Below, piece after piece: positions 1,265-47,500 of a stretch of DNA of 64,000 nucleotides. The notes beneath the pieces were generated by a model. The model had not been told where the DNA came from. It saw nothing but the letters and a program-made list of their open reading frames with translations, and searched no databases. Within the stretch, counting starts at the first letter, position 1; the number at the start of each line of letters is the position of its first letter. The position numbers and the translations under genes were made by a program. Source of the stretch: Owenia fusiformis. Lineage: Eukaryota; Annelida; Polychaeta; Sabellida; Oweniidae. The stretch covers positions 27,698,822 to 27,762,821 of the forward strand of contig CAIIXF020000008.1 of assembly GCA_903813345.2 (NCBI GenBank), given 5' to 3'.

Positions 1265-4200
1265 ATTTGCAGAGTATGTGTCTGTCAAAAACAGAGCCTA
1301 TGTGTCCAAGGTACCTGCCAATATACCCATGGACGTTGCTCCAATGATGTCATGTGGAGCGCTCACTGCTTATAATGGTGTCGATCTTGTCAAGGAATCA
1401 ATAAAGAAATGGATCAACTGGAAAGGTATACTGGTATAGCAGAGATAAAATTACTTTAAGCTACGTTCACACCAACGGCGCTTTGATGGCGCTTTGATGG
1501 CGCTTTAATGCAGCGTGCGAAGCGGCTTTGCACGCCGCATTAAAGCGCCATCAAAGCGCCGTTGGTGTGAACGGAGCTTAACATACTGTATAATCAGATT
1601 TCAAAGTAACAATTCTATCATGTATTTGATCATCTGTTCGAGATTTGGATGGATGTTATAGACTTACAAAATATGTTGTCCTCCAAAGAGATTGGGTATA
1701 AACTATTCTTCCAGACAAGTTAGTCTCTAATGATCTTTTGGCATTCTGATACTCATAGCATCTCTCTCTGTTGCATCGCTGATTCTCTCCAGAAGGATAG
1801 AGATGGAGAGGGCGTGGCTTACCACGATGATCTTTTGGGGCTCCCCCGAGTTTCCATTTTCCATTTTTTTGCACTTATTTTCTTAGCCCAATACAAACAC
1901 TATGTTATGTTGACAGTTGAAGCCAGTTCTGCAATTTTGACTGATTTTGAGCATTTGGTCTTGCTTCAAGACCCCGCCCGACCCCCCCCCCCCCCTTATC
2001 TACTTTACAAGCTGTTGTTAAAGTAATGGAGGTTTCATTGTCTTGAATTAGGACGTTTTAGCAAATTGGCACCTTGATTATACAAATGTGATGTTATTGT
2101 ATTTAGGAGCTGCTACAGTGTTGATCATTGGTGCCGGAGGTCTAGGTTTGTGGGGTGTTTCTTTGTGCAAAGCAGTCCTTCCAAAAGAGACGAGAATAGC
2201 AGTTGCAGATTTGTCCGTATGCGAATTATCAGTTTAATATTTTTACGCATATCTTACACTAGTGTCTATTTGATTTGGCGTTTTCGCATCTTATACAATG
2301 CCGTGCAGGTCTATGATAAACAAAATCAAGATAAAGAGGTAATATCAAGGCATTCAAATTCCTCCTTTGGGATATTCGTTTACATCTTTTTGATTTTGTT
2401 GTTTTTGAACACAAATGAATTTATACATCAAACAGCTGCTTTGAAATCTCAGAACTTCTATGTAATTTCTTTAACTTGTACAAATGACGTGCGTTTATAT
2501 AGTCGGAGTTCAGAGATTCAAAAATAAGGATGAAAGATTTAAACTTTATTATTTTTTCTGGTCATATTGTAGTCTGAAAAACTTGAATCTTCCAAAGCAA
2601 TTGGCGCTGATATTACGATATTATGGGATCTTAAAGGTGAGTGCAGCCTCAGTTACATAAATTCAAGCTTTTACTAACTAGGTTTGGATAAAATTAACAC
2701 TCAACGTTAAGTCAATCTTCCAACTTTCAAATTTTTTTACTTCACATTGTCTTCGCTTAATTATCGTATAAAAGAAGAAGGTACGAAGTCTGAAACAAAG
2801 TTAATTTACTTAATTTAACTATAGTTTTCCTTTTCCCTACCAAAATAGGACCACCACACTTGCTCCAATTCATTTGAGTTTTAAAGCATCTTACTTTCCA
2901 CTATTCTCTTTCTATGTACATTGTACATATATAAACCCTTATGGATTCCATATTTTCCCAACTCTCATCCTATCTTTCTTTTCATTCTCATCAATTTCTG
3001 ATGACAATCTTATTTCCTTTACTCGTTCGTTGATTCACACATTTTCCTATTGTTGTTCTAATGTATATTTCCAACCCACATTATGTTTTATAAATATACT
3101 GTACAATATATATATTGTTGAGATTGAATGTACTAGAATAATTTATTTTCTTTGAAGATGATACAGCAACAACCATTGAAAAGACTAAGAAAGCTCTTGG
3201 TGGTTTGGCGGAATCATCCATTGATTTCGTAGGCAATCCGTCCACGCTGAAAACTGCAGTGCATGTATCAGCTAAGGTTAGTAAAACAATAATGAATCGT
3301 GAATACACAAAGGTAATTCCTTTAATTAAGGCTGTGATTTTGGGGTTTTTCTGCAAACATATGTGTAAATGAACACTTTATTCAATGCTATTCTAATTTT
3401 ACCAACTGTGTCACACAAAATAAAACTGAAAACCCTGGTGTGATGGCTGTATCTAAGCAAGCGTTACTACAGAGAAAAAATGCATAATAAAAAAACTGAA
3501 AAAACTGAGTTATTTTTCATTGTTACATCATGGAGAATTTATCAACAATTTTACACACTGTAGGGAGCAACAGTAGCAGTCGTCGGTCTATTTGGTGGAG
3601 CTGCCACTATTCCAGTTCCATTCTTCCCAATGAAAATACTCAATGTCGTTGGTACATACACAGGGTCCACTGTACATTTTAAAGAACTACTGGAAATTGT
3701 AGATAAGAATAAGGTATGGTTGTACTTTTGATTGATGAAATAACAATTATCAGATCATTAATTAGCTACTCTTGGATGTTGATTTCTTGCTTATTTTTCT
3801 AATCACATTTAAAACGTTTAAATAGCTATTCTAAAATATACATGTAGTTGTATATGTATTGCTTATATTGTTTACAAGGCATGTGGTACCCCTAAATTTT
3901 TGTTTTCGTGATAATTGAATGAATGTGCATGTTTTAAACAAGACGCCAGTTAAAACTCGTTCCACCTTTTTCATTAATTAACTACTTTCAATTTTTCTGT
4001 TCACAATATCATAATGATTTACATCTGGTAAGACTACAATGAATCTAGGTCAAAGTCATTCTGATTTACCAGAATTTCAAAAGCTATTCCAAGGAATAGC
4101 ATACTAGACTTTAACGGCCAAAGTGGCTTAAATTTTGGCCTATGATATCACATGAGAGCATCTGTGTTTCTTCAGGAAATCAAAAGGTCGAGCAAATGTA

Positions 4201-4387
4201 AGTACAAACTTGAAAGAACAGCTTTAAAATACAATAGCATAACTGTATTACATTCTGTCTTTCTTTCTTATTTCAGATTGTTGGGCCAACGATATTCCAT
4301 TACAAACTCGAGGATGTAAACGAAATATTTAGAAAACTAAAGAACAGAGAAATAAATGGAAGGGCCATCTTAGAATTTGACGATTAG
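1265..4387 (+). CDS. Zinc-type alcohol dehydrogenase-like protein, copy 1 (exons 5-10 only)
   Basis: Medium-chain dehydrogenase/reductase. Exons are 1265-1425, 2107-2216, 2573-2636, 3158-3276, 3564-3713 and 4277-4387. Each has the same length and phase as its partner in copy 2, with GT-AG borders and no stop before TAG at 4385-4387. Visible parts are the segment carrying the likely third zinc ligand (MMSCGALTAYNG), the Rossmann glycine motif VLIIGAGGLGLW, and a strand ending VADLS whose Asp suggests NAD preference. The catalytic N-terminal half (first Cys, GHE) and structural-zinc cysteines are missing because exons 1-4 are not in the 445 bp before exon 5. They either lie left of the inserted transferase copy or were lost. 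Splice sites, frame and poly(A) signal are intact, so this is a 5'-truncated gene or a very young pseudogene. Exon 6 differs from copy 2 at 5 of 37 residues, so the dehydrogenase duplication is older than the transferase duplication. Confidence 0.85.
1457..1580. repeat. 124-bp near-perfect snapback palindrome
   Basis: The arms begin TAAGCTACGTTCACACCAAC and end with its near complement GTTGGTGTGAACGGAGCTTA. The arms consist of GGCGCTTTGATG/GCGCTTTAATGC blocks, and the left arm carries one extra 11-bp block. It lies in the intron after exon 5 of dehydrogenase copy 1, is far more GC-rich than its surroundings, and is probably a foldback MITE. Confidence 0.9.
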
Positions 4388-5416
4388 ATCAGAGGCATAT
4401 AAAATACAATCCAATAAAACGTTGTATGCAATCAGATATAGAGTACATAAAGGAAATATACGCATGCGCCTCACTCGATCATACACTGCCTTGATAAAAT
4501 GACAGGGGATAATCTTTGAACTTGCCAAGTTTGGTTCATGAGTGTGTCCAGTGGAAAATGATTGCTCTAAAATAGCAGTTAATACTATATTCTAGTCACT
4601 AAGCGGTGACATCACCTAGTGTAAACATTGTCACATGACATTTCTCCATAGAATCCGGCATAGAATTAACATGAAAATATGTAAATGGCATTGGCTAGGG
4701 AAGAAGAATTAACTATCAAATAAAAAAACGTTGAAATATTTCCTACGTATATAGTTTTATTTTTGAAGTCTACTTGTACATAACTATAAATAAAATTTCT
4801 AATCATTAATTATTTGCCGGCTGAACCGATAAAGTATATAAAAAGAAATACGATATACCAAAATATGCAATTTTATATACATAATATGTAACAATATATG
4901 CAATACTTGTAAGGCTTGTATACACCTGAAACCAAAGAGGATCGGCTCCCAGGGTCCCAATTCGATATTCGACCTTGACCTTGATTGATGACAACATTGA
5001 CAATGTCATTTTTTCTGATATTATAAATGGCTATAAAATCATAATCAGCAATCAAAGATGTGAACTAATATCTTGATCACTTGTGTGCTTGCCTAATATA
5101 CTCATGAAACAATATATATAATACTTGTGGACACATGAAACTTAATGCCACAAAAATATAAAGACAGAGATTCTATGATGATATATGGCGCATTATATGA
5201 CCGGAAATTTCATTCTGTTGAATAGAATCGAGGTCTTTGTAACATTCTAAATGATAAGCAACCCAGAAAACAACTAGATATTTGCATTTAGGAAAAATGG
5301 TCATGCACACTAGTATACATGTACACGTTAAACAATGCAATAATTGTCTACACATGAAATGATCGATAAAACTGTTTATCATATTTTCCGAAAAAATACA
5401 TCTAGGTATAGTTTAT
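4388..5416. other. Intergenic DNA with a relic MITE (4938 to about 5100)
   Basis: This lies between two convergent 3' ends. No coding signal is seen. From 4938 the sequence matches the left part of the elements at 8086-8367 and 28596-28889 (AGGATCGGCTCCCAGGGTCC, then a CGATATTCGACCTTGAC-like stretch). The rest is unique AT-rich DNA. Confidence 0.55.
4413..4418 (+). other. Poly(A) signal of dehydrogenase copy 1
   Basis: AATAAA lies 26 bp after the stop codon at 4387. It fits the 3' end of the upstream gene and shows that copy 1 keeps its terminator region. Confidence 0.6.
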
Positions 5417-9800: not shown

Positions 9801-11243
9801 ACGTCAATACAATAGTTGTTTGGTTAAGACAATATTTATTTGCATTTTTTGGATCAGTCAAAATGTCTGCAGGAAATACTAGCATAATACTCATTCAAGT
9901 TGAGCATTTTTACTATAAAGAATCATTTCTGAAGAGGGTTGGACACTTTCAATTAGCTACAATTATATTTTAAGGTCGTTTCAGCACAGAAATTGATTGA
10001 TTGATTAATTAATTTATGATTGATGTGCATTTTAGTTATGAACAAAATGTTAATTGATTACATCATAATTAGAATTATTAGATAACAATTTCAAATGTAT
10101 TTCATGGTATAAAAATAGCTTTCAATTAAAGTGTTCAGTAGGATTTGATTGCATTGTGGCCTCGTACATGTAGGCTATAAATAACCTGAATGAACGTTAT
10201 GACACGAACTTAACTTACTTAAGATCCCAACTCATTATTCCGATATTGTTGCCGCCTGTAATACCATATTTGATTGTCTGGGCATCAATATCATCAACCA
10301 ATGGCTGCACTACGACGTGAGGATCTCTTTTAATCTGGGAAAGAATTTCCTCCAGCCAATTGTTATTGGCCTCAGTATGCGAATCAAGGAATATGATGAC
10401 GTCACCAGTGGCGGCTCGGGCACCTTGCATCCGAGATCTGATAAGCCCCTGTCTGACGTCATGGCGGATTAATCTCACTTTTGGTAAATGTATCAGATAA
10501 TCCCATAATGGATCGCGGAGATATTCTTCCTCATTAGCATCATCCACTAGAATTATGTCCGCCAGAAGTTTTGGAGGAGACCTATTGAGTATACTGTGTA
10601 CAGTTCGTAATAACATGGAGAGTGATTCAAAATAGAATGGAATGATGACACTGGCCCTAGGCAAATCATCAATCTCATACTGCAGCTTTAGACATTCATT
10701 AGGTCTTGTATCGGGGATCATCCTATCTAATGAAATACCATCACTTAATGTAGCATTCAAGTTATACTTTGCATCAGGGGGTCTTTCGAATTTAAACAAT
10801 TTGTTTTGAATCCCTGTTAACGTGTGCCTATATTTCGGCCAGTCCTCGTGACTCGCATTGGCGGCTAGTATCAACCCTTCTATATCTCCAAGATGTGGTT
10901 TAGGTGGAGCAGTTGGAAGATGGGCTGAAGCTGCTATTTTGGACGGGCTGGGGTTATTTACTGCTTTAAGTTTTGACGTGTTCTTCGGGGGAATAATAGG
11001 CTTCGCTGTAATATCCCTAGTGATACCAATTATAGGTGTTGGGTTGACAGTAGATCCATGTTTTTCCAGTTTTTCATCCCGTTTTTGGGTGATATACTCC
11101 GACCTATCGTGGTCCCCTGCTCTCGCGGCACTAATAATGAAGTAGACGGTGGTTATCAAAGAGAGAACGAGAAGCCTCATGCCCCACCTCTGTACCGATC
11201 TTGGCCACATTCTCCAAAGTCTATACAGACGCAACATGTACAC
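6818..11243 (-). CDS. Polypeptide N-acetylgalactosaminyltransferase-like protein
   Basis: Type II Golgi glycosyltransferase expected to move GalNAc from UDP-GalNAc to Ser/Thr of mucin-type proteins. Three exons on the minus strand, 10219-11243, 9344-9483 and 6818-7680, join in frame to 675 residues. In order: signal anchor (about 22-41), Pro/Lys-rich stem, and a GT-A catalytic domain from about 190 with the metal-binding triad in FLDSHTEANNNW (DSH at 287-289). Exons 2-3 encode the Gal/GalNAc motif WGGENIELSLRTWLCGG and the histidine-containing SRVAHAFK, where typical members read VGHxFR. The C-terminal ricin-like region is weak: it keeps some cysteines and one QEW, with no clear triple repeat. 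DSHTE replaces the usual DSHCE. The start is the first ATG before the anchor. The family is certain; the subtype and activity are not. The first exon and 5' flank are duplicated at 1-820. Confidence 0.92.
8086..8367. mobile_element. MITE in transferase intron 2
   Basis: The left end AGAGGATTGTCTCCCAGAAT is inverted against the right end CGTCCCTGGGAGCCAATCCT, with a CGATATT stretch just inside each end. The family recurs at 4938 and 28596-28889. The remaining intron (7681-9343) shows no coding signal. Confidence 0.7.
9564..9739. repeat. Snapback repeat with long G and C tracts (GTAGCC...GGCTACAGGC family)
   Basis: It starts CCGTAGCCAGGATTTGCC and ends GGCTACAGGCCTGC, with a run of G near 9684 and of C near 9713 that pair. 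Relatives are at 20231-20333 and 52091-52240, with fragments near 49080-49250 and 57361-57470. It lies in intron 1 of the transferase. Confidence 0.7.
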
Positions 11244-11495
11244 TAACGCAGTAATCCAAACCGATCGGAATATCAGTCACTTACTGTTGGAAGACTGTAC
11301 GGAATCTCGAAACTTTACTAGTGTCCACTAGTACTTATTGGTCCTTCAGTATTCTATCGCTTACATGATATCAGTTAGTGCTGTACTTTCCCGGGGTATT
11401 TTCCTGGTTTTAAACTTCGTACTACATCAGGGCGTGTACATATGTACAAATAATTCGTTTGCCACGAGTACACTAGGTTTATGGTAATACTCCCA
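10676..11495. repeat. Segmental duplication, right copy (matches 1-820)
   Basis: This is the partner of 1-820. It spans most of transferase exon 1 and about 250 bp of its 5' flank. The shared sequence stops abruptly after AATACTCCCA in both copies. Confidence 0.95.
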
Positions 11496-12546: not shown

Positions 12547-15500
12547 ATGTATAGGTACATGGAAGTGCCGGGGCCTCGTCAGAGGATGGTTCTGAAAGAA
12601 AAGGCTATTCCAGCTCCACCTCCAACTGGCATGGTGGTCAAAGTAAGTGTAATCGTATATGTTATAGGTATAGCAAATATTCTTATTTTGCATCCAGTTC
12701 GTTTTAAGTGCCGATGCTAGTCCAATCTAACAATTGTAGTACACTGGTCTTTAGTGGTCAATGACGGTACCGTACCGTATCGCAAATGCTATAGTCCACG
12801 GCAGTTGTCTTTGATGCTAGACCAACTAATACTTCTAGTTCATAAAAATACTGGCCTCTGATGCTAGTCAATAACATTAATAGTCTTCAATGCTATTCCA
12901 GTATGGCACTGGCCTCTGATGCTAGTCCATAACATTACTAGTCTTTATTGCTAGTCCATAATGGCACTGGCCTCTAGTGATGCTAGTTCATAACGGTACT
13001 GGTCTTAATTGATGTTAGTCCATAAGAGTACTGGTCTTTGATGCTAGTCCGTAAGAGTACTGGTCTTTGATGCTAGTCCATAAGAGTACTAGTCTTTGAT
13101 GCTAGTCCATAAGAGTACTGGTCTTTGATGCTAGTCCATAAGAGTACTGGTCTTTGATGCTAGTCCATAAGAGTACTGGTCTTTGATGCTAGTCCATAAG
13201 AGTACTGGTCTTTGATGCTAGTCCATAAGAGTACTGGTCTTTTATGCTAGTCCATAAGAGTACTGGTCTTTATGCTAGTCCATAAGAGTACTGGTCTTTG
13301 ATGCTAGTCAATAAGAGTACTGGTCTTTGATGCTAGTCCATAAGAGTACTGGTCTTTGATGCTAGTCCATAAGAGCACTGGTCTTTTATGCTAGTCCATA
13401 AGAGTACTGGTCTTTATGCTAGTCCATAAGAGTACTGGTCTTTGATGCTAGTCAATAAGAGTACTGGTCTTTGATGCTAGTCCATAAGAGTACTGGTCTT
13501 TGATGCTAGTCCATAAGAGTACTGGTCTTTGATCCTAGTCTATACCGAAGCTGATCTCTAGTGCTAGTCAATAGCAGTACTGATCTCCAATGCTATTCCA
13601 ATACTGGTTTTTGGACTAGTCCATAACGCTACTGATATCTAGTGCTACAACATAGCTGTATTGGTATCTGGTCCTAGTCCAAACGGCACTGGTCTTTGAT
13701 GCTAGTCCATAACGATGCTGGTCTTTGATCCTAGTCAGTATCGGCACTGGTCTCTGATTCTAGTCCGCCATAACAGGAATGGTCTCCAATGCTAGTCAAT
13801 AATGAATACAAAAAAGGCGGTCACGCATCCGTTACGTCAGGTTCGTGGCCATACGTAAGCTTCATGAATAAGGCCTCTGGTCTCTGAATCTAGTCCATAA
13901 CAGGAATGGTCTCCAATGCTGGTCAATGATGAAACGGATTGCTAATGCAGGGAAGCATTCAAGATGTAAACGTAACAGTCACTTTATGATTTACTTACAC
14001 CAGGTGAAGTACGCAGGAGTTTGCCACTCCGACCTTCACATGCAAGACGACGATGTTGAACTAGGCGAAGGGAAGACTATACGCAAAGGTGATGTTGATC
14101 CTGATTACAAATTCCCATTGGTTTTTGGTAAGGACTCTATTTTTATTGTCCACTCAAATACAGCGCGCAATTTTAGATATGATATGCTTGAGCGAAATTA
14201 TGGTTCGAGAGTTGCATAACAATATGGATAGTACCAGTTTAGTTATCATCATGAAGCATTTTACCAATTTTATTTCTAGGACATGAGATATCAGGTACTG
14301 TGTACGCCATAGGTGAAAGCAAGAATCCAGGTTAGTGATACCCTGATCCTACTACCTCGACGAAGTCCACGAACAGTTCAACAGTTCAATCAGTGATGAT
14401 ATGAAGATGAAATTAGTTTTTTAATGTGTTAATATTAGGACATATACGACACTTAAAGGCCTAAATTTCTGTTAAGTAGAAACCCAGGGTGTTTTAATTA
14501 TAGAGCCAGTTAACATACACATTAAGAGCTGACCAATCAGCTGGCATTAGAAGTTGCTTTTGTTTACTTGAACCTTTCTTGACCCGAAATCTGATCTTTG
14601 ACCCAAGCTTTGGATGATGCTATTGGTTAGATTCAAATTTTGAACTTTTCTACTGAACATAATTAAGTAGCATTTAAAAAACTTTGACTTGTTCTTATTC
14701 AAAATTAGAATAATATTTTACCAAACTGATTACATTTTTGTTGTCTCCAAATGTTCATACATGACCACACCAAGTTTCAAAACAAACAAAGGCCTATTTA
14801 TTGAGACACACTAAAAATCAATTAAATTTTACTGGTTTCTGTTAATAGAAAGGATTCAAACAGACATATTTGGCTGTTCCAAGCAACCCCTTCTCCTTTT
14901 ATAACGGATTTTGGTCTTTAACCCTCAACATGTTCAAAAACAGGAATTAAAGAGGCTATCAATCAGCCTTGTGTTCTAGGCTAGGTATGGCTACAGTATA
15001 CGAGAAGCAACAATTTATAATGCTTATTTTAAATAAAGTATGTGTTGGAATACTCTGTTGTCCAATGATCATCGGTATTCTCCGGTCAAGTCGTTAGGGT
15101 CACGTAGTTCTTGACGGACTCTAGGTTGAATTAGAATCAACAAAATCGAATCGACCTGTAGGATTTACAATGCCTGTTTGTAGTGTATAATAATTACAGA
15201 ATTTGTATGAATTTTCAGATGCAGACACATTCGAGATCGGCGAGAGAGTGGTTGTTTTTACATTTTGTGGATGCACTGAGTGCGCTTTCTGCAGGATGGG
15301 AGACAATAGATGGTGCGCAAAGGCACTCTCAAATAATATTGGTCTGGGAGCAGAAGGCGGGTGAGTAAGGACCTTGTAGAAGCAATTGCAGTAAATAAGT
15401 ATTTACATGTAAGCCAAATAAATTGTAAAATTTTGAAATGGTTTAATCCCTCAAATTGATTATAATGGTGTCGATAGTATAGAGTTTATAATATGATACA

Positions 15501-24422: not shown

Positions 24423-27400
24423 ATGGCAGATTCTACATCAGTGGTAAAACCAAGTTGGAATCCTATACAATTAATATGCGTGTGTGTATTCTGTGTAGGA
24501 CCTGCTGCAGTCTTTAGACTGCCATATATTATGTATAGATCTGGAGGTAAGCATAGACCTAGGGAAAAGTAGTAGTAAGCTAGACGCGGAGTTGGTAGGA
24601 GTTGGTATTGGGCCACTGTTATCCATAGATCCAACTCTCCTTGTTTAGGACGGTATAGGGAAGACCCAATAATAAAGAGAGCTACTCACTTCTTCAGAAG
24701 CTAGTATATAGAAAGATATCAACCATTGGCACCATCCCTGTCACTCTTTGGTAACCGCCTGTTACATATGGTATATATATTTGCTTGAGCCTTCAAAATA
24801 TATGCAAAATAGAATTACCTTAAAATGCATTATAATGAGTAGTATTAAAGCTTTTTTGTATCTATGGTACAGTGATAAATAGAAATATTTTATGATTTCA
24901 TTTCAGGGTCTGCTTATTTGATTCCCCACTATTTCTTCCTGTTTGTGATCTTCCTGCCTGTTGTTGTCCTGCAGATGCGGGCTGGCTCTATTACAGGGAA
25001 GGGAATTGTAGCGATGCCAGCGAAGTACATGCCTATCATCAAAGGTATAGTTCTCATATTACATCGCGAGGTTCAATCAGGCCATGCATGCACCTTTAAG
25101 TAGCCCAAATTCTCTTAACATGCTGCCATGCTATTTTGAACAAGCTTCTGAACAAGCTTTCCCATAGTTCCACTCACTGTTTTCATTATTCTAAATACGT
25201 TGCCTTCACGAGAGTTATTTGACTATATTTTCATTTTATCGCCAAATATATTTTCTCATTGTAAAATCATGATTTTCAAAATGAGCAAAATACAATAACA
25301 CAACTGAACACTGTTTAAAGTAATACCATTTTCGTATAGGTATATCTGTAGCCTTAGTGTTGAAGACTCTTCTAGAGAACATCTATATAGGTTCCTTGTT
25401 TGGTCAGATGATATACTACATGGGGGCTACTGGGAACCAGGCGTTGTTGCGACAGATGTCAACATGCAGCAATCGTTGGAATACTCCAAATTGTTTTGAT
25501 CCGTTTGATTTCAGGTATCGTTTGAATTAAACTACAAATGATAAAATTCAACCTCATTTGAAATGAGACATCGCTTATTAATCGTTTTTCTAAGTAATCA
25601 CGGGCATTCTAACGAGGACCATATACTTGTAAATGACTATAAAAACAGTTACCCTTTGCATTCGTTTGACTTCACCTCTTGAAAGAGAGCTTCGTCTGTA
25701 GTTTAACTAGACTCTGCACGCAGGGTAAAAAACAGTCAATGTTTGTGTAATGACCGGGCTCTTAGCGAAAACCATATACTTGTAAATAATACTAGAATGC
25801 TTGGTGAAAATAGTTAATGATTTTGCGCAATTTTGGCCATTCCAATGAAAATACGGGACTGTTTTATATATTTTGTGTTCTAATTAGCTGCCCCTTTCTA
25901 TATGTTAACCAGCGTTGCATGTGGTTCACTCTTGTACTGGTTATCTTTTGCATATGTATAGTCAACAGAATAGTACTACTTCGACCACTGCCAATGAATA
26001 TGGATCATATAATTACGAAATGTATAGACCAAAAATACACCCAGTAAAGGAATATTACAGGTAAATGATTATATGATCTTATAGCAGGAAACCTATTGTT
26101 GTGAATGTATTTTGGAATCCTCATACCGATTGGGTGATATCAAATTGTTCAGAAGCTGGAAAAACACATTTATACCACAAATTTTATGCAAGAAATTTTT
26201 TTCCATTATGCGTTCTCTTTAAGAAGTTGAGAACCACAATCCCAAATTCCAATATCAAATTCAAATGTTAATTTTCTGAATATGTTCTTGTGCGATCATG
26301 AATACAAAAAATGGAGAGATGTGGCAGCACATAAAATACCCAATCATGATTCGTTGCAGCAATGCGTTTCTGGAGATATCAGAAGGAATTGAATACGCAG
26401 GGCCTGTAAGAGGTTTGTACTTAGTGGGAGTCTTGTCATTCTGGATTCTCATGTTTCTCTCCACCTTTGCCGGCCCCAATATATATGGCTGGGTAAGTCT
26501 GATCAAATATAAGTAAAACAATATTTGCACAAAAATACCATTGCAATCCGAGCCAAACTTCGACTGATTAATTGTCTTCATTGACAGGTGCCCTGCCTTG
26601 GCAGTTTAACATAATATATTATTAACATATAAAAGTATCTCCTTCACTTTGGTTATTTTTTTCAGATTATGACTGGCGTAGCTCCTTTATCTATTATCCT
26701 TGCTTTAGTAGTGATGGTGCGAGGCCTAACTCTGCCGGGATCTTCTGAAGCCGTCCTCTACACGACACATCCGGATTATAGTGTCCTTCGAAGACCTCAA
26801 GTATGCTGAATCATGTATTCAGAGATAAGAATGATTTACTGGAAGGGATTGAATATGGGTTTTATAACGAGGGCCAATGATATTTTCCGATAAACGGAAG
26901 GGGCCTACTAAATTGAACTTTCTGATTGAATATTCAAGTTTACCAAAATCAAACTGAAAGATATATTTCAAACTTATGTAAAATGTTGATGATCAGTTAT
27001 TGATCTGATTCAGCAATATATGAGTGTGAAAAAAACGTACATGCATTAGTATTAATATCACGCACCTTAAAGTCCGTGGTATTATTTTTGAATTATGGAA
27101 CTAAATACAGTAGGTACTTAGAACGCACCTCAGTTACGAAATACACCTGTTAAGTTCGGTCGGTTTTGTATATGGAGTTTATTCTTCTGGAAATACGTGT
27201 ATCTCCCGGTGAACCGTAGATATTTCCTTTGGGGTGAATCATGTATCCAAAACGATCCAATCCCAGTACATAACACTTATTAGCCTTGCCCAAGTCGGTC
27301 TCTTTTACTTATCTTGATTTCTAGATCAGGATAAGTAAAAAATACCGACTTGGGCAAGGCTTAAGACTTATGTATTCACCTAAATCGGAAGTCTGGGTTA

Positions 27401-30400
27401 CAACAAATATAAGGTTGTTTAAAACAATAAGGTTGATGTCACTTGTTATTTCCAAATATTCAATTAGTACACTTACTTTATTATAGCTATGGTTGGATGC
27501 ATTAGTAACCCATTTATATGCTCTGGAAGTTACAAGCATCACGTTGCCTACTATTGGGAAACACACTGGCAAGGGGAAGATCATGAGTTGGTTGTAAGTT
27601 TTTGTATATGCGATATATTTTATAAAGTCTGTGGGCCACTTATTTGTCATATTGAAAGAAAAGGGTCCCTTTTCTTAATTAAAAGGTGTCCATGGGAGTG
27701 GTTTATTGCGTTTATCTTACCTTTCATATGGATCAAGCAATACTACTTTTTTACATCTTCTAGGGCTCCTTGTATTTTGATTCTCGTGTACTCTCTTCTA
27801 CCAATACTGGCAATGTTCACGTTTTGGTCATATCAGGGATTTGTGGCCCATCAGCTTGGAATATCGATCAATGACGTTCTACTTTCAGGTAAGGAATCTT
27901 CAGACACATCGGACAAAAACTATTTCCTTTTTTGTAACCATGGAGTGAAAGAAATTCGAAGTTATTGTCATGCTCTAAATTAGTCAGACGTGGTGTTTTA
28001 TTATGATGATTAGGGGGATTAAACTACAAGGTTTTGAGAAAACTTGTACATGAACGTGTAATATTATGACCCTGATGGATAACTGTCTACCTGTCGAATG
28101 ATTTTCCAAGGTACCCAATTAGAACTATTTTCCATATACCTTCATACTAAATCGTGCGAATACATACCACGAAGGGGACAACTAATCCCTAGAAAATCAG
28201 TTTTACACGTTCTCGTTCACGTTTCCTTAAAAACGTTTAGCAGGCCCCTCCCCCTTTGGGTGGGCCCAGAAAAAAAATTGAGGCCAAAAAAATGTTGGGC
28301 CAAAAAAGCAAAGTGGGCCTTTTTGGTTATCAAATCATTTGGGTTTTAGGGGCCCATATTCAGGGTTGTTCTCTGACCTGAAATGTGCCCCCCCCCCACC
28401 CTTGTTGGTTCCCAGATCCGCCTCTGTAGCTTAAACTCTCTATTTTGATTTTCAGGCACAGAATTTCTCACAGTAAACATTGTATCAGCTGTGTCGATGA
28501 TGCCAATGGGAACCGTTTGGGGACCGCTCATTTTCCTCACGTTCCTTATCTTCACTGGTCAAGGCATGGTAAAGTCATACACTGGAATGTAAAGGGGAAT
28601 GACTCTCAGACTTCCAATTCGATATTCGACCTTGACGCTGGTCGACGGCAACATTGAAAATGTTGTTATTTAAACATTATCAGAGAATCAGAAAAGTTGA
28701 ACTAATATTTTGATCACTTCTTGTGTGTTTTGACATCTTTTGTTTTGAAAGTAGTCAAAAACTCGCAATTGATCTCTGAAGTGAAAAAATGGCGGCCGTT
28801 TGATCTCGAATTTTCTATACTAGTATAGTAACGACACTACTCTATATATGAAAGAATATCGAGACAGAACCCTGAAAGTCAATCCTCCTTGGAAAAATGT
28901 AGCATTCATAGCAGTTTGAATAAAAGCATGCAGTTCTTTGACCACTTAATGTGGCACATTTCATACAGGGAAACATTTCTGATAAGTTGATATATAACTA
29001 CGGTACTTCAACATAGATTGGGGTTTATGTGTTTACCATTATCAAATATTTACATTACAGTTGTACAGTTAAGTACAGTATTTTTGTCTTCTTTGTTTGC
29101 AGGCGATGAGAGTCCTAGCAATTGTTGATAACATCTCCATACCAAACGTAGACAAGAAGCGTTTCTTACCGAGAATGATGATAACTTTTCTAGTGTGCTT
29201 TATTAGTTTCATACTGGGAATACCTTACACTCTTCAGGTAGAAACATAATAAGTGTCTTATGGTACATATATTGAACATTTGATGAGGAATTCTACCTTT
29301 TTGATGATAAGGGATAAAATAATATAACGCCTAAAGTATTCCTCTCGGATGTACAGGGTGAGCCAAAGAAGGTAGTCCAAACAAATTTTAATAACTCAGT
29401 CAATCAACATGGGTTTGAAGTCATATTTGGTAAAAATTAAACCGGGTTCAATTTTCTCTCTAAGTTTCATTGGTCGGTCGATACTGACTGTTAACGATTT
29501 TATAACAGAGCCTGTGTCGAGTCTAGTCAAACGTTTCTGGCGAAGTTGTTCACTACGCGAGCACAGACATCTTGTGTGTAATGGCTCACATCTTCCTTCT
29601 CATTTCCTGTTCCAATGTTTCAAGGGTTGTTTGTATATACATCAGCCCCACAGATAACAATCTGGGGTGTTTGATGCCTAGAATGTGGCCTGTCGGCATT
29701 TGGTGTATTGTATAGTACCCCGGACAGGTTGTATGATGCAGTCATTTTTTTACTCTATATTTGCAATAGAACAACCATTCTTATTAAAATTTTCATATTT
29801 TATTCTGGAGACAATTTCCAACATGGAAAAAAAATATTTTAACGAAATTCTTAATTTTATGATTTTGATAGGCTTTTTTCAAAAACACTCCACTGTCAAT
29901 AAAATACAGGTTTTGCTTGAACAAGTAAACTTTTAACGTCATTTTAAAGATTGTCTAGTTATTGAATTTTTGGCCGCCTAAAGTCTTTCCAGATATATTT
30001 GATGCCATATTAATTATGGCCGATTATTGTTATTCATTTTTGTCATATTCAATAGGCCTAATATTATTACAGTGCATTAGGCCAATGAAAAACTTGTCAC
30101 TCTGGGTCACGTTTCCTCTGAAAACGCACCTTTTTCTCCACTGGGTTTTTCCGCCTCCGTCATTCAGCATGCAAGCCTGTGGCACGTAAATAGTACCCTG
30201 CTTTTAAAATGTCAGGTCTCCCTGACAATTTCATGATGAAATTTGACACAGCTATAATAACATCTCTGAAGGATCTAATGCCAAGAATACTTGAAATTGG
30301 AGATTCGTAATGTTTTACTTCATTTTGGACAATATTGAACAGTTCGATCGGGTTGAACTCATGTCCGTGGACAAGAAGATTGACCTCCTCTATCTGGGCT

Positions 30401-32781
30401 CAATGTAGGGAACGCTTCACAAAACGAGACCCAGAGCAACAAGTTTTTATTGGCCTAATGTACTGTTATAATATTGAATATGACTCAAGTGAATAACAAT
30501 ATTCAGCCATAATTATTAATATGGCAACAGATATATCTGGAAAGACTTAAGGCGGCTGGAAATTCAATAGCCAGACAACATTTGAAATGACGTTAAAAGT
30601 TCAATTGTTTAAGCAAAAACCTGTATTTTATTGACAGTGTAGTGTTTTTGAAAAAAGCCCGTCAAAATCATAAAATTGGGAATTTCGATAAAATATTTTT
30701 TTTCCATGTTGGAAATTGTCTCCAGAATAAAATATGAAAATTTTAATAAGAATGGTTTTTCTATTGCAAATATAGAGTAAAAAAATGACTGCATCATACA
30801 ACCTGTCCGGGGTACTATATAGCTATAAAATTGTGACCTTTTGGGATGACAGACCAATGAATCTTGGTAGAATGAAGGAACATTGAACAAGGTTCAATTG
30901 TGCCAAATATGACATTAAATATATGGTGAATGACTAAGTTATGAACAAACATTTGTTTGGATTACCTATTTTGGCCCACCATGTAGTTGAATCTCTTGCT
31001 TGTAGTGTTTCTCTCCAAAAATCAAAATTCCCCAATTTCTGATATAGTGCAATATATTTAGATTTAGATTTGGAGCACACAAATTGTACACGTTTTATAT
31101 CTTTTAAGTCTTTCATACATATTCTGTTTTAAGTTTCAAAGAAAAGGATAGATAATAATATTATCATGATTATGGTATCTGCGAAAAGAGAGACGGTCAC
31201 TCGAAATCGCTACATAACGTTGGAGTTCTTTATCAAGCCCCTTTTCGGAATTTGGTCATTCCTGTAACATGTGTTTTACATTCTTTTTCAGTCTGGTCAA
31301 TATTGGTTTTTCCTTATGGACAATTCTTTGTGGTTACCCGGATTCTTCTATATGGCAACAATTACAGTGGTGTATTGTATTTGTTATGGTAGGTAACACT
31401 CAGCTGATATTCTATTGCCACTGGCCACTACCAGGTTGAATACAGTCATCGCTTAATATGGCAGACACTCACAAGCCACAAGCTTCGTAGAAACACGTAA
31501 CAAAGTCCAGATCAGAAAAACCCTAAATAGACAGTTCAGTTTTGCTTTATATTATTTGGAGGGCAGTTACAATGTACTATAATATGTATTAATGGGTTGA
31601 ATGAAATTCAATTGCAGCCAAGACAGGGAAGTCAGTCGTGGAGAAGATTTTCGTGCTTGCAATACCAGGATTTATGTCTTTAATTGTCACAGTGAGTTGT
31701 CATTTGTGTGATAATAATAAAATGAGTTTGCCTTGGTTACAGACTATGGAAACGCAAAATGACCATTTCCCAATTTATAATATTTCACTTGAATTTGATT
31801 ATCATTTTCTATATTCGACTTAAGCTTTCATTTGTACACTTTCAACAATTTAATAGTAGTCTATTTAAAATGTCATTAGCTGGCAATATCAGACGTTTGA
31901 CGTTCAGCTGGATTGAGAATCACAGTTCATTATGTCATCACCAAAGTATTGATATAATGTTTTGTCTCAAGATTTTTGTGGACGATGTTCGGCGGTTGGC
32001 GTTCGTCGGTCAGCGTCTGTTACAAATGTCATTTGGTGACATTTTGCATGTTTTATGCCCTGTTTGACATACAATGAAATGAAACGCTGTGGCTTTATTT
32101 ACATCGATATTTTAGTGAGAACAGAGAATAGATTACATCCATACTATTTTATTTACAGATTGGTTTAATTCTCATGTTGGCTTCTCGTGGAAATGACGCC
32201 ATTTTTATGGGTGATTATGTATTTCCTTATTGGAGTAAACACCTTGGTCGTGTTATTGCCGCTGCTCCGATTATAATAGGCATATTGGGAGGAGCAGTCC
32301 ATGCTGTGTTAACACAAGACGGCAACATTGTTCAAGTGAGTGAATCCCTATCACCTATAAAATATATTACTTAAATTGGTATGTAACTTTAATGTTATAT
32401 CACATAAAAACATACGTCTTAATATAAAATGTATCAAATCTGAAATCCCAAATGACCATTGGTCTTCGTTTTTTGCAGAAAATCAACAAAGCCTTCATGG
32501 GAACAAGTGACAGACCGGAAAATGTTTACCAGCAGACAGACCGCGATATTCCACTGAATCAGGGTTACCCCCAACAAGGATATCCCCAACAAGTCTATTC
32601 CCAACAAGGGTATCCCCAACAAGTATATTCCCAACAAGGATATCCCCAACAAAGTTATCCCCAGCAAGGATATCCCCAACAAGGTAATCCCCAGCAAGGA
32701 TACCCAAAACAAGATGACACCCAGCAGGTTGACAATCCAAATCTTGGAAATACTGATCTGCCAGAAAAAACAAAGTTATAA
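24423..32781 (+). CDS. Divergent SLC6-family (neurotransmitter:sodium symporter-like) membrane protein with YPQQ tail
   Basis: Fourteen exons join in frame to 644 residues: 24423-24546, 24907-25044, 25340-25514, 25962-26060, 26360-26492, 26666-26800, 27487-27593, 27764-27888, 28456-28568, 29103-29237, 31292-31388, 31618-31691, 32159-32335, 32479-32781. The SLC6 fold is read from the TM1 to TM2 block ([20 protein letters not shown]), a long glycosylatable second extracellular loop (NST sites) ending HPVKEYY, the TM6 start LWLDAL, and about a dozen hydrophobic segments. Family residues that bind sodium are changed: the TM1 stretch before RxP reads VGPAAVF where members have a GxGNxW/F/L pattern, and TM8 reads FTGQGM where a Leu-Asp-Ser-like motif is usual. 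A normal Na/Cl-driven transporter is doubtful; it could be an uncoupled carrier, a receptor or a partner subunit. Residues 573-622 form ten pentapeptides in the cytoplasmic tail. The start is the first ATG, 14 codons before TM1. Confidence 0.88.
25651..25727. repeat. Dispersed repeat, copy in SLC6 intron 3
   Basis: TTTGCATTCGTTTGACTTCA and, further on, AGTTTAACTAGACTCTGCAC occur in inverted order and complement at 43067-43165. This is a two-copy interspersed repeat, class unknown. Confidence 0.7.
27290..27363. repeat. 74-bp hairpin in SLC6 intron 6
   Basis: TTAGCCTTGCCCAAGTCGGT at the left is inverted as ACCGACTTGGGCAAGGCTTA at the right, with ACTTATC/GATAAGT pairing further in and CTAGATC at the turn. 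Probably a small foldback element. Confidence 0.85.
28596..28889. mobile_element. MITE, third copy (SLC6 intron 9)
   Basis: It shares TTCGATATTCGACCTTGACG and TTTTGATCACTTCTTGTGTG with the repeats at 4938 and 8086, and has an inverted end CTGAAAGTCAATCCTCC. Non-coding. Confidence 0.65.
29354..30983. mobile_element. TA-flanked Tc1/mariner-type MITE (SLC6 intron 10), interrupted
   Basis: The left end CAGGGTGAGCCAAAGAAGGT and complement of the right end CATGGTGGGCCAAAATAGGT continue as inverted arms (TCCAAACAAAT, ATAACT...AGTCA). TA on both sides. The original element of about 530 bp is split by the foldback at 29714-30816. A relative is at 35934-36378. Confidence 0.8.
29714..30816. mobile_element. 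1.1-kb foldback element nested in the MITE
   Basis: The termini AGTACCCCGGACAGGTTGTA and TACAACCTGTCCGGGGTACT are exact complements. The arms stay complementary for roughly 400 bp each, with small differences. The centre (about 30130-30400) is unpaired. No transposase is seen; short frames in the arms are shadows of the repeat. Confidence 0.9.
32563..32712 (+). repeat. Coding 15-bp tandem repeat (ten YPQQ-type pentapeptides)
   Basis: Ten consecutive 15-bp units near CAAGGATATCCCCAA encode [20 protein letters not shown] and GYPKQ in the SLC6-like C-terminal tail. The variants are mostly single-base changes, so expansion was recent enough to keep the unit but old enough to vary. Confidence 0.95.
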
Positions 32782-44500: not shown

Positions 44501-47500
44501 ACCACCCGACAATGTTTTAAACTCCTTCGTCATTAATTCTTGCCATACATGCTTGCTTGATTTTCCGATCCAGTTCAAGATAATAAAGTTACCACACCAT
44601 GACTGAGTGCTGACGCTTGATAGATGGAAAATGTTTGAAAAGGTTCTTCATACGCTGACAAGCTTACCATATGATTTAATGTTGTAGTTTCAGAGATATT
44701 AATGCCATTGATAACAAGCTTTGCATCATGAGAAAGGGGTTTGATGGACACAAGACCTGCCTCTTTCCGCACTAAACAATGGCGATCTTGAATCCTGTAA
44801 TAAAGGTTAATTTGCGAAAAGTACTTCAGGGTGTTTGACTGAGTGGTCCACGACTCGTACAAAAGGCTGTTGTGAGTACTTGTATGGCTATGTATGGATA
44901 CACATAAAAAACACAGGGCTCCTTTGAGGAGGGGTTTCTGTGTCTATCTTCCAGGCTAATTATGTTAATTACGACCGTTCAATACCAAGAGGTATTGCTC
45001 ACCTTCATTGGTGGTAAACAAAAAAATACAATTACTGATGGCAGCTCGGTTTGGGTCAAATAGCAAGAAACCAGTTAACCATCAGATACGGCGCCATAAT
45101 TCATAAACAAATTCATGAACGTAAACAAAGTAGTATAATCACTTACCCGAGTCCCCTGAGTTCGATGAAGTTCTCCAGGTCTTGTCCCGTCTCTTTCCCC
45201 ATAACAGTTTCGTCTATAAAAATGATAACAGTTGGTGATTACTCGATATGATTTACAATACGAATACGCAATCGATTTGTTTGGTATTAAGCTACACTGC
45301 AATATCAGATACTTTTTAAACCGTTCACATACCGTTTAAGAATGCATATTTTATAACACCAGAGAGCTGAGAGTCCTCATTTACATTTTGGATGTAAGGA
45401 TTTGTATCTAGCACTGTTTCTTTTTCTCCTTCAATATTCTGCTTCCATGCCTCCCTGTTCAAATATAAACCTGTGTTTCAGCATTATAACAATACATTTA
45501 AGCACCCATATGTACTTAATTACGCAGAACATCGCGAGGGTGGGCACTGGGTACAAAAACATAATGAAATACTTTGTCGAATTTTTGAACCATATTGTAT
45601 ATTCGTCCTTCACCAATCATCCAAACACTGTATTTCTATTCTGTGGTATTGTTAGCTCAGGTAAGGACTTGTTTACCTTGCCTTTGCCAGCTGTTGCTCC
45701 CACGACGTCTTCATTTCTCTCATCCTGTTTTCGTTTTCTTCTACACTCATCTGATAATCTTAAAAAACAAAATATCTTTCAGGAGATTTGTTTTGAATGG
45801 GAGGGCGTATTGGACACTGTTTCTTTTCACGTTCGATTTGGTTTGGGGTAGTTGGGGCTTATTTTCCTTATAACCGGTACTCTTAGATGTTTTCTTTTTC
45901 CTGCTGTGTTCTGTAACTATGTTTTTGCTACTCTACCGTTTGCAATTGCGCAAACATGTATAGACGCATGTCGAGAAGCCAGACGTACAGTATTTTATAT
46001 CGAATAAACCTTTTGATAAATAAACCTTGATACTGCGTTAACAAAATATACATTGTTTTCGGTCAATATATCATAATGATGGGCGAACAAATTGACATCG
46101 GTACACGACATGATGCCATTGATTTGGGTCATCGTAAGAATGATTACCTATCACAACCGATGCTCTTCTTTGTTTCTGCAGCTGGCCCAGCAGTCTAGCA
46201 TTTTCCTCCTTTAACTCACGAATCAGTTTATCCGTTATATTTTCGTTTACAACAGCCTGGGTCTGTATTCTTTTCGCCCTGGATTGTAAAATATGTCTTC
46301 GTTTAGTCATTGTAATTTTATTACAGTATACAAACATTAAGATTGGTCACAATTAAAACCAGAGACCGTTGTTTTAATATTCGGAATGTCAAATAGCCAG
46401 TTACCCGAACTACCGTATAAACACTGGTAAGTGAGACCGAAGGTCTACGTGAATAGACTTTTAAAGTTTTACAAATTGAATTTAAAATTGAATGTTAATT
46501 TCGTTTCAATATCGTATGACAATAAAGTTTAAAAATTTAGATGAAAACTAATGATGTAAATGGTTTACCTATTTGCATATCTCAACGTAGATAAAGTCTC
46601 CTCATAGCTATTTTCTGATGGACTCAAAGTAGCCAACTGAAAATGAAATTGGACAATTGATTTTATGATCAATTGTTATCACTTATATAGTTACAGTTCT
46701 GATACTGCATACTAGGTAGCTGGAAGGGATAGATAGCCTATGATAACCGCTGATATTATAAGAATTGTAGAATTTATGTTATCTTCAGGTTTGTAGTTTT
46801 AAGAATGATGCGGAATATAATAAATCTTACAATTAAGTTTGTTACTACGGGGAGTTGCTGTTTTCAAATCTTATTCTACGATGGGCCTCTATCCCCGATA
46901 ATGGACTTGTTTGATGTCTTATTAGCGATCATACGAGAGCCGAGTGAACGAAAGCATTGCCCGGGAATTCGATAACAGCTGCAAGAAAGAAAGAGCGCAC
47001 TGGACGAATAATTCAGACACCGCATGCGCATTCATCATTATCGATTTTTATAAGTGTAGCAAGGGGTCTTAATTCATGTAGCAACGATAAATAAACAAAC
47101 ACCTGCTATTAAAGGTAAAAAGATATAGAGGTCATTAATGGCGATAAACGATAATATTTTCTCTTGAAAACTGTTTAAGATGACGTCTTAGATATGCTTG
47201 CATAAAATAGATTATATTGGACCGCAAACTCAAGACAAGTTATAGCCAAAAACATAATATTTATTCTACTGATCAATATTAGGAAAGGGATCATGTATGC
47301 ACCAGTGTACAACACCGAATATTCAAGTAATTATACACATGGACCAGGAGAATATGTGTCCACTAATGCCGCAAACATACAAAATCAGACATGGTAGGTA
47401 GCATTGCATTGTATCTAAAGCTAGCATCGAAGAGTAATGACGAGGTCAACCACTTTGATTGTTTGACATACTGTAGTGTATTGGGCCATAAAGGATAATA

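Follow-up and report, generated by a model that had tools for sequence, protein, structure and literature searches.

A strongly divergent SLC6-family gene of Owenia fusiformis whose predicted protein lacks the known sodium and chloride side-chain ligands

Results

An SLC6-like gene of Owenia fusiformis lies at positions 24423-32781 (plus strand) of a 64,000-nt stretch of contig CAIIXF020000008.1, the whole of which is referred to here as the window. Rebuilt from the raw sequence, the model has 14 exons, a coding sequence of 1935 nt including the stop codon (644 amino acids, no internal stops) and GT-AG boundaries at 13 of 13 introns. An earlier sequence-only reading had described 14 exons with a frame open over 644 codons and 13 junctions, which the rebuilding bears out; the motifs that it named (VFRLPY in TM1, HPVKEYY at the end of loop 2, LWLDAL at the start of TM6) are present as stated.

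Exon 1 (24423..24546) carries the start codon and TM1, in which P27, A28 and A29 (24501-24509) replace L25, G26 and N27 of LeuT, and R32 corresponds to the outer-gate Arg30. Exon 2 (24907..25044) encodes TM2, with H49 in place of the chloride-site Tyr47, and exon 3 (25340..25514) encodes TM3 and the start of EL2, including K96, E100 (25375-25377, for V104), I104 (25387-25389, for Y108) and the EL2 cysteines. The remainder of EL2, with HPVKEYY and an N-S-T glycosylation sequon (found by eye), falls in exon 4 (25962..26060), the end of EL2 and TM4 in exon 5 (26360..26492), and TM5 and EL3, with RGLTLPG retained, in exon 6 (26666..26800). TM6 is encoded by exon 7 (27487..27593), where T276, A280 (27520-27522), E282 (27526-27528), T284 and I286 replace Q250, T254, S256, G258 and G260. 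TM7 is in exon 8 (27764..27888; Y313, at 27789-27791, for N286, and P317 at position 290), EL4 and TM8 are in exon 9 (28456..28568; Q381 and G382, at 28560-28565, for T/D354 and S355), and the end of TM8 and TM9 are in exon 10 (29103..29237; R386, at 29109-29111, at position 359). Exon 11 (31292..31388) encodes TM10, with D438 at the outer-gate Asp404; exon 12 (31618..31691), the loop to TM11, measures 74 nt versus 101 nt in the paralogue L016; exon 13 (32159..32335) spans TM11-TM12; and exon 14 (32479..32781) supplies the cytosolic tail and stop codon, the tail consisting in part of about 10 GYPQQ-like repeats of 15 nt each (32569-32713). A hydropathy profile, run without a control, peaked at the aligned TM1-5 and TM7-12 and once in EL4, with TM6 below the threshold used.

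Several repeats lie in and around the gene. About half of intron 10 (2,054 nt) is taken up by a foldback element (29711-30819), in which inverted arms, each about 310 nt long (97% complementary over 204 nt and 86% over 107 nt), flank about 500 nt. Upstream of the gene, positions 1-820 and 10676-11495 form an 820-nt direct repeat with zero mismatches, which reflects either tandem duplication in the recent past or an error of assembly. It includes codons 1-200 of an ORF on the minus strand; a Glycos_transf_2 domain is encoded in the rest of this ORF (10215-11276). At 12835-13766 a 29-nt unit is repeated 32 times as a minisatellite, and the adjoining ORF (13872-14219) has a weak alcohol-dehydrogenase match, below the Pfam cut-off.

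The predicted protein matched the Pfam SNF profile (PF00209; E value, 2.6e-53) from residue 18 to 524 (profile positions 12-511 of 524). Its nearest solved structures by sequence were GAT3 (1.8e-44) and the taurine transporter TauT (4.1e-44), followed by glycine, betaine, GABA-1, creatine and monoamine transporters; LeuT was absent among the best 60 of 78 PDB matches. At these E values, the SLC6 scaffold proposed in the earlier reading exceeds chance resemblance. The EL2 cysteine pair is retained, and the segment around it aligns to ATCGHEWNTENC of GAT3.

For comparison, spliced-alignment models were made of 17 other SLC6 genes of the same genome (several partial) and later of 4 GAT-type genes. 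The fetched paralogues are a selection from PF00209 exon matches, found by family resemblance, and all counts given below apply to those fetched. In one of them, L005 (contig C2, 23621500-23631499), nine tandem copies of the TM4 exon (FSHYVLQITDGLENIGTVRWHLALALLG and variants) were found about 114 nt apart at 3475-4536 of the locus; they lie in one SLC6 gene, and the last copy alone continues to a full exon.

Eleven of the 13 introns are common to the dopamine-transporter-like paralogue L016 (same phase, within 2 residues), nine of them exactly, compared with a mean of 0.53 and a maximum of 5 in 20,000 trials of random intron placement. The first intron, which follows SGG, differs from that of L016 by one codon. 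The two introns that do not match are that of EL2 (phase 2 versus 1) and intron 12 (same phase, 4 residues off, in a badly aligned loop). This agreement indicates descent from an animal SLC6 gene and anchors the alignment register; on these grounds, the predicted product is a member of the SLC6 family by descent. Exons 8 and 9 (TM7 and TM8; 125 and 113 nt) equal those of L016 in length, and exons 7 and 10 start at intron positions exactly common with L016 (that of exon 7 just before LWLDA), which fixes the TM6-TM8 register and leaves TM7 and TM8 ungapped. In TM1 the register is set by VFRLPY, and no Asn is nearby in any register; in TM8 a profile alignment introduced a shift by a one-residue gap, and neither Asp nor Ser occurs in that register either. 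We therefore judge that the comparison of ligand positions is not dependent on the aligner.

Residues were compared against LeuT, dDAT, GAT3 and TauT (the LeuT and dDAT sequences verified from their PDB entries; GAT3 and TauT rows partial, TM1 to TM10), with LeuT numbering and site roles (Na1, Na2, chloride, substrate, gates) that we take to be the accepted ones. None of the five Na+ side-chain ligands is retained. At Na1, N27 is A29, T254 is A280 and N286 is Y313; at Na2, T354 (Asp in dDAT, GAT3 and TauT) is Q381 and S355 is G382, and G20 in the Na2 region is V22. The loss of the GxGN Asn to Ala, claimed from the letters of the window, thus holds against all four references. The chloride site is likewise retained at none of four positions (Y47 to H49, Q250 to T276, A280 at position 254, P317 at position 290). 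In the substrate site the TM3 tyrosine Y108 is I104, V104 is E100 and S256 is E282; at the hinges, L25 is P27, G26 is A28, G258 is T284 and G260 is I286; and at the inner gate, R5 is conservatively K9, Y268 is H294, Q361 is L388 and D369 falls in a gap. The change is accordingly broader than the sodium-site loss first proposed, taking in the chloride site, substrate tyrosine and inner gate. Retained are the outer-gate pair R30 (R32) and D404 (D438), W8 (W12), G24 (G26) and the EL2 cysteines. With no Na+ or Cl- side-chain ligand left at the known sites, Na+/Cl--coupled symport by the known mechanism appears very unlikely for this protein, and its role is probably other than sodium-driven transport.

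Four charges are gained at pocket positions: K96 and E100 (TM3), E282 (TM6) and R386 (TM8). In a comparison of 29 pocket positions with 25 other sequences (some incomplete), a charge at LeuT positions 100, 104 and 256 was unique to the gene (0 of the 24 other sequences covering each), and one at position 359 was otherwise seen in TauT alone, as Glu. The other sequences have 0 to 3 charges in the pocket set, mostly the TM8 Asp, which this gene lacks. The sites at which relatives bind ions and substrate have thus acquired two acidic and two basic residues. We infer that these pair with one another, most obviously K96 with E100 and E282 with R386.

The same positions are highly conserved in other SLC6 genes of the genome. 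Asn27 was found in 21/21, Ser254 in 23/23 and Tyr108 in 20/20 fetched genes, Asn286 in 20/23 fetched exons (D, T and S once each) and Ser355 in 21/23 fetched TM8 exons (T in L014, A in L009). Position 354 was D in 15, G in 6, S in 1 and N in 1 of the 23 TM8 exons. In the TM8 exons of L028, L030, L031 and L034 the Asp is replaced by Gly (GxGS), so that this residue of the Na2 site is variable among the SLC6 genes of this genome. The earlier reading had counted the TM8 Asp-Ser pair as lost, and both residues are indeed absent; the loss of S355 carries weight, but the Asp is a weak sign (15/23), as it is not universal among SLC6 genes of the same genome and its loss alone means little. The predicted losses at N27, S254, S355 and Y108 outweigh it.

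We compared this loss with divergence across the protein, using the models made before the four GAT-type ones and blanking badly modelled stretches (L006 before column 228, L008 after 277, L013 after 400). Among positions at least 80% conserved, the gene kept 0/8 ion/substrate positions versus 59/141 others (Fisher p = 0.022), the other 82/141 being changed or gapped; at 90% conservation the counts were 0/5 versus 38/87 (p = 0.075), and at 100%, 0/3 versus 27/57 (p = 0.24). The excess is significant at one of three thresholds, the two stricter ones showing a contrast in the same direction, and the apparent ligand loss belongs to a general divergence; its completeness is the point, rather than the p-value. 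In a leave-one-out comparison, 14/17 paralogue models had lost at most one of the conserved ion/substrate positions; the exceptions were L006 (3/5), L014 (7/9) and L009 (3/9), against 0/8 in the gene. Identity of the protein to the 17 models was 20-28.5%, compared with 33-74% among the models themselves (median 47%, 115 pairs).

A protein search of the genome (498 Mb, 525 contigs) returned 14 matches that are the gene's own exons and 5 weak ones to first-helix exons of ordinary SLC6 genes (28-36% identity); a second or close copy was not found in this search. A PF00209 search of the same genome gave at least 107 exon matches (82 of 424 candidates scored), none of those scored being on the gene's own contig. 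That the gene itself was missed shows the extent of its divergence, and that very divergent members can escape such a search.

Two trees left the gene unplaced (the first without L017; the second without L017, LeuT, L006 and L003). In both it sits on the longest branch, an end branch measuring 8.4 changes per column in the first tree and 10 in the second. In a tree test, neither holding it with the GAT group (p-AU = 0.414) nor with dopamine transporters (0.142) was rejected, and at 26 group-specific positions it has the GAT state at 5 and the other state at 6, the rest being neither. The phase of the EL2 intron is 2 in the gene and in the GAT-type G41 and G44; each of the 14 non-GAT models with an intron at this place has phase 1 or 0. 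GAT-type G39 has both a phase-2 and a phase-1 intron in EL2, where its model is poor, and G38 has a phase-0 intron.

Simulated neutral drift of L016 to 25% identity gave a mean of 19 stops in 538 codons (range 7-31; 200 runs), and drift to 50% identity a mean of 13 (range 5-24). Set against these, a frame that is still open and 13 splice-site pairs that are all intact suggest constraint during most of the divergence. Selection had already been argued from the open frame; the simulation backs that argument for most of the divergence, and a recent loss of function is compatible with it.

The window was also scanned in six frames with a paralogue profile, and no clear SLC6-like exon was seen outside the model in the 64 kb (best outside stretch, 45815-45880; E value, 0.78). 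The scan recognised exons 1, 2, 3, 5, 6, 8, 9 and 10 (E values of 0.15 or better) and exon 11 (1.9), with exon 13 at noise level, and missed exons 4, 7, 12 and 14 of the gene; the short TM6 exons of the paralogues were detected with the same profile. Having missed some of the gene's own exons, the scan excludes only canonical or mildly divergent alternative exons. A motif scan for canonical TM1, TM6, TM7 and TM8 gave a single loose resemblance to TM8, at 32229; it lies in a different frame of exon 13, and we take it as chance. Of the conditions named beforehand as refuting, neither alternative exons nor an alternative alignment was found: the scans gave no clear canonical exon in the 64 kb, no register brings an Asn near the TM1 site, and neither TM8 register has Asp or Ser.

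Discussion

The predicted product belongs to a known family, within which it has diverged strongly. Our preferred reading, to which we give a rough probability of 0.48, is that the gene is an old protein-coding SLC6 descendant that would encode an SLC6-type membrane protein without Na+/Cl--coupled symport of amino acids or amines, a non-transporting pseudo-transporter. The whole-domain SNF match, common introns, ligand and hinge loss, unique charges and open frame together support it; in particular, the changed TM6 hinge glycines and inner gate argue against a normal alternating-access cycle and favour a protein that does not cycle. K96-E100 and E282-R386 may pair and substitute for the absent ions and substrate, and the paired charges would hold the bundle in one state. 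The outer side (EL2 and the R32-D438 pair) would stay SLC6-like, the protein might act as a surface partner, receptor or trafficking factor without transport, and the GYPQQ-repeat tail could be a cytosolic interaction or clustering segment. Against this reading, carriers of charged substrates have charged pockets too, and the added charges might form a new binding site; the R32-D438 outer gate is retained as in a working transporter, with R5 to K9 conservative; and the predicted divergence is everywhere, with an ion/substrate excess significant at one threshold of three.

A working transporter with changed coupling is, in our view, a serious though lesser possibility: a Na+/Cl--independent facilitator, exchanger or proton-coupled carrier, in which E100 and E282 would hold a different, perhaps cationic, substrate and R386 or K96 would replace the sodium ion. 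In its favour, the SLC6 core is complete and the outer gate pair kept, and E100 sits at the V104 position of LeuT, which one report treats as helping to set the substrate specificity of LeuT-fold carriers (PMC5809530). Acids at a specificity position could hold a cation, which places the carrier close behind the pseudo-transporter. KAAT1 and CAATCH1 are SLC6 members that also have altered sodium-site residues and ion use, yet KAAT1 departs at few positions, as far as the available part of the source goes (PMC8310414). Here the TM6 hinge glycines, substrate tyrosine and inner gate have all changed together, and a literature search of titles and abstract beginnings found no sodium-independent SLC6 protein. 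That the protein is either uncoupled from sodium or has a new role, as first stated, does follow from the site loss, and the evidence selects neither alternative.

Two further explanations seem to us less probable. The gene may be a relic that diverged under selection and then recently lost function or began to decay with its frame still unbroken; conserved positions lost throughout (82/141 non-ion positions changed or gapped), the longest branch in both trees, the failure to find a second copy in the genome and the lack of relatives in viral and prokaryotic collections (which says little for an animal gene) all fit this. Nevertheless, at about 25% identity, a level that neutral drift throughout would reach with 7-31 stops, the frame and 13 splice-site pairs remain unbroken, and the EL2 cysteines, RGxTLPG and outer gate pair are among the retained features, so we consider a relic improbable. 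Far less credible still is a wrong gene model or alignment, with canonical exons or a canonical register existing after all. Identity is low, the profile alignment shifts TM8 by one residue and the first intron is one codon off that of L016; yet exons 8 and 9 match L016 in length, exons 7 and 10 start at exactly common introns, VFRLPY anchors a TM1 with no Asn near, neither TM8 register offers Asp or Ser, and the profile scan gave no clear additional SLC6-like exon in the 64 kb.

A wider joint claim can be put forward tentatively, and we think it rather unlikely as a whole: that in an animal SLC6 lineage the bound Na+, Cl- and substrate were replaced by a network of two acids and two bases (TM3, TM6, TM8), giving an ion-free device that would be a receptor, scaffold or sodium-independent carrier, with the repeat tail for clustering. 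Sodium coupling is the defining property of SLC6, and an intact member with its ion and substrate apparatus replaced would show which parts of the fold are kept for reasons other than ion-coupled transport. Such a gene would offer a testable case of a symporter becoming an ion-free carrier or non-transporter, and it would gain in importance were the charged pocket conserved in orthologues.

Among known systems, the gene resembles the SLC6/NSS family (PF00209) in its whole-domain match, intron positions and phases, EL2 cysteines, outer gate pair and RGxTLPG and LWLDA motifs, and differs from it in the changed Na1/Na2 and chloride sites, TM3 tyrosine and inner gate and in four new pocket charges. 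Within the family, it is like the GAT group in its best PDB matches (GAT3 and TauT) and in the phase-2 EL2 intron (G41, G44), and unlike it in having GAT-specific residues at 5/26 positions and no placement by trees; a GAT-group origin is a lead. Its paralogue L009 (contig C6, 2429500-2439000, minus strand) also has changed ligands (Q250T, N286T, N at 354, S355A) but N27, Y108 and the Ser at position 254 are unchanged in it, and its sister gene L010 (support 100/98) is more typical. L009 has an open spliced model with partly changed ligands, an apparently independent and milder sodium-site loss set against that typical sister.

ApcT and CaiT are Na+-independent LeuT-fold carriers in which positively charged side chains are said to replace the sodium ion. 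Charged side chains may stand for sodium in the gene as in these proteins, which belong to other families. A literature search (titles and abstract beginnings, most subscription papers lying outside it) returned no SLC6 protein without its sodium ligands. A jellyfish SLC6 protein strictly retains Na1, according to the accessible portion of its description (PMC6590891). The lepidopteran SLC6 proteins KAAT1 and CAATCH1 depart at positions 20, 21, 22 and 286, including an Asp at the N286 position, and cation coupling remains, as given in the available part of the report (PMC8310414). Both they and the gene thus have altered sodium-site residues, and on that partial description it is only in the gene that every side-chain ligand is changed.
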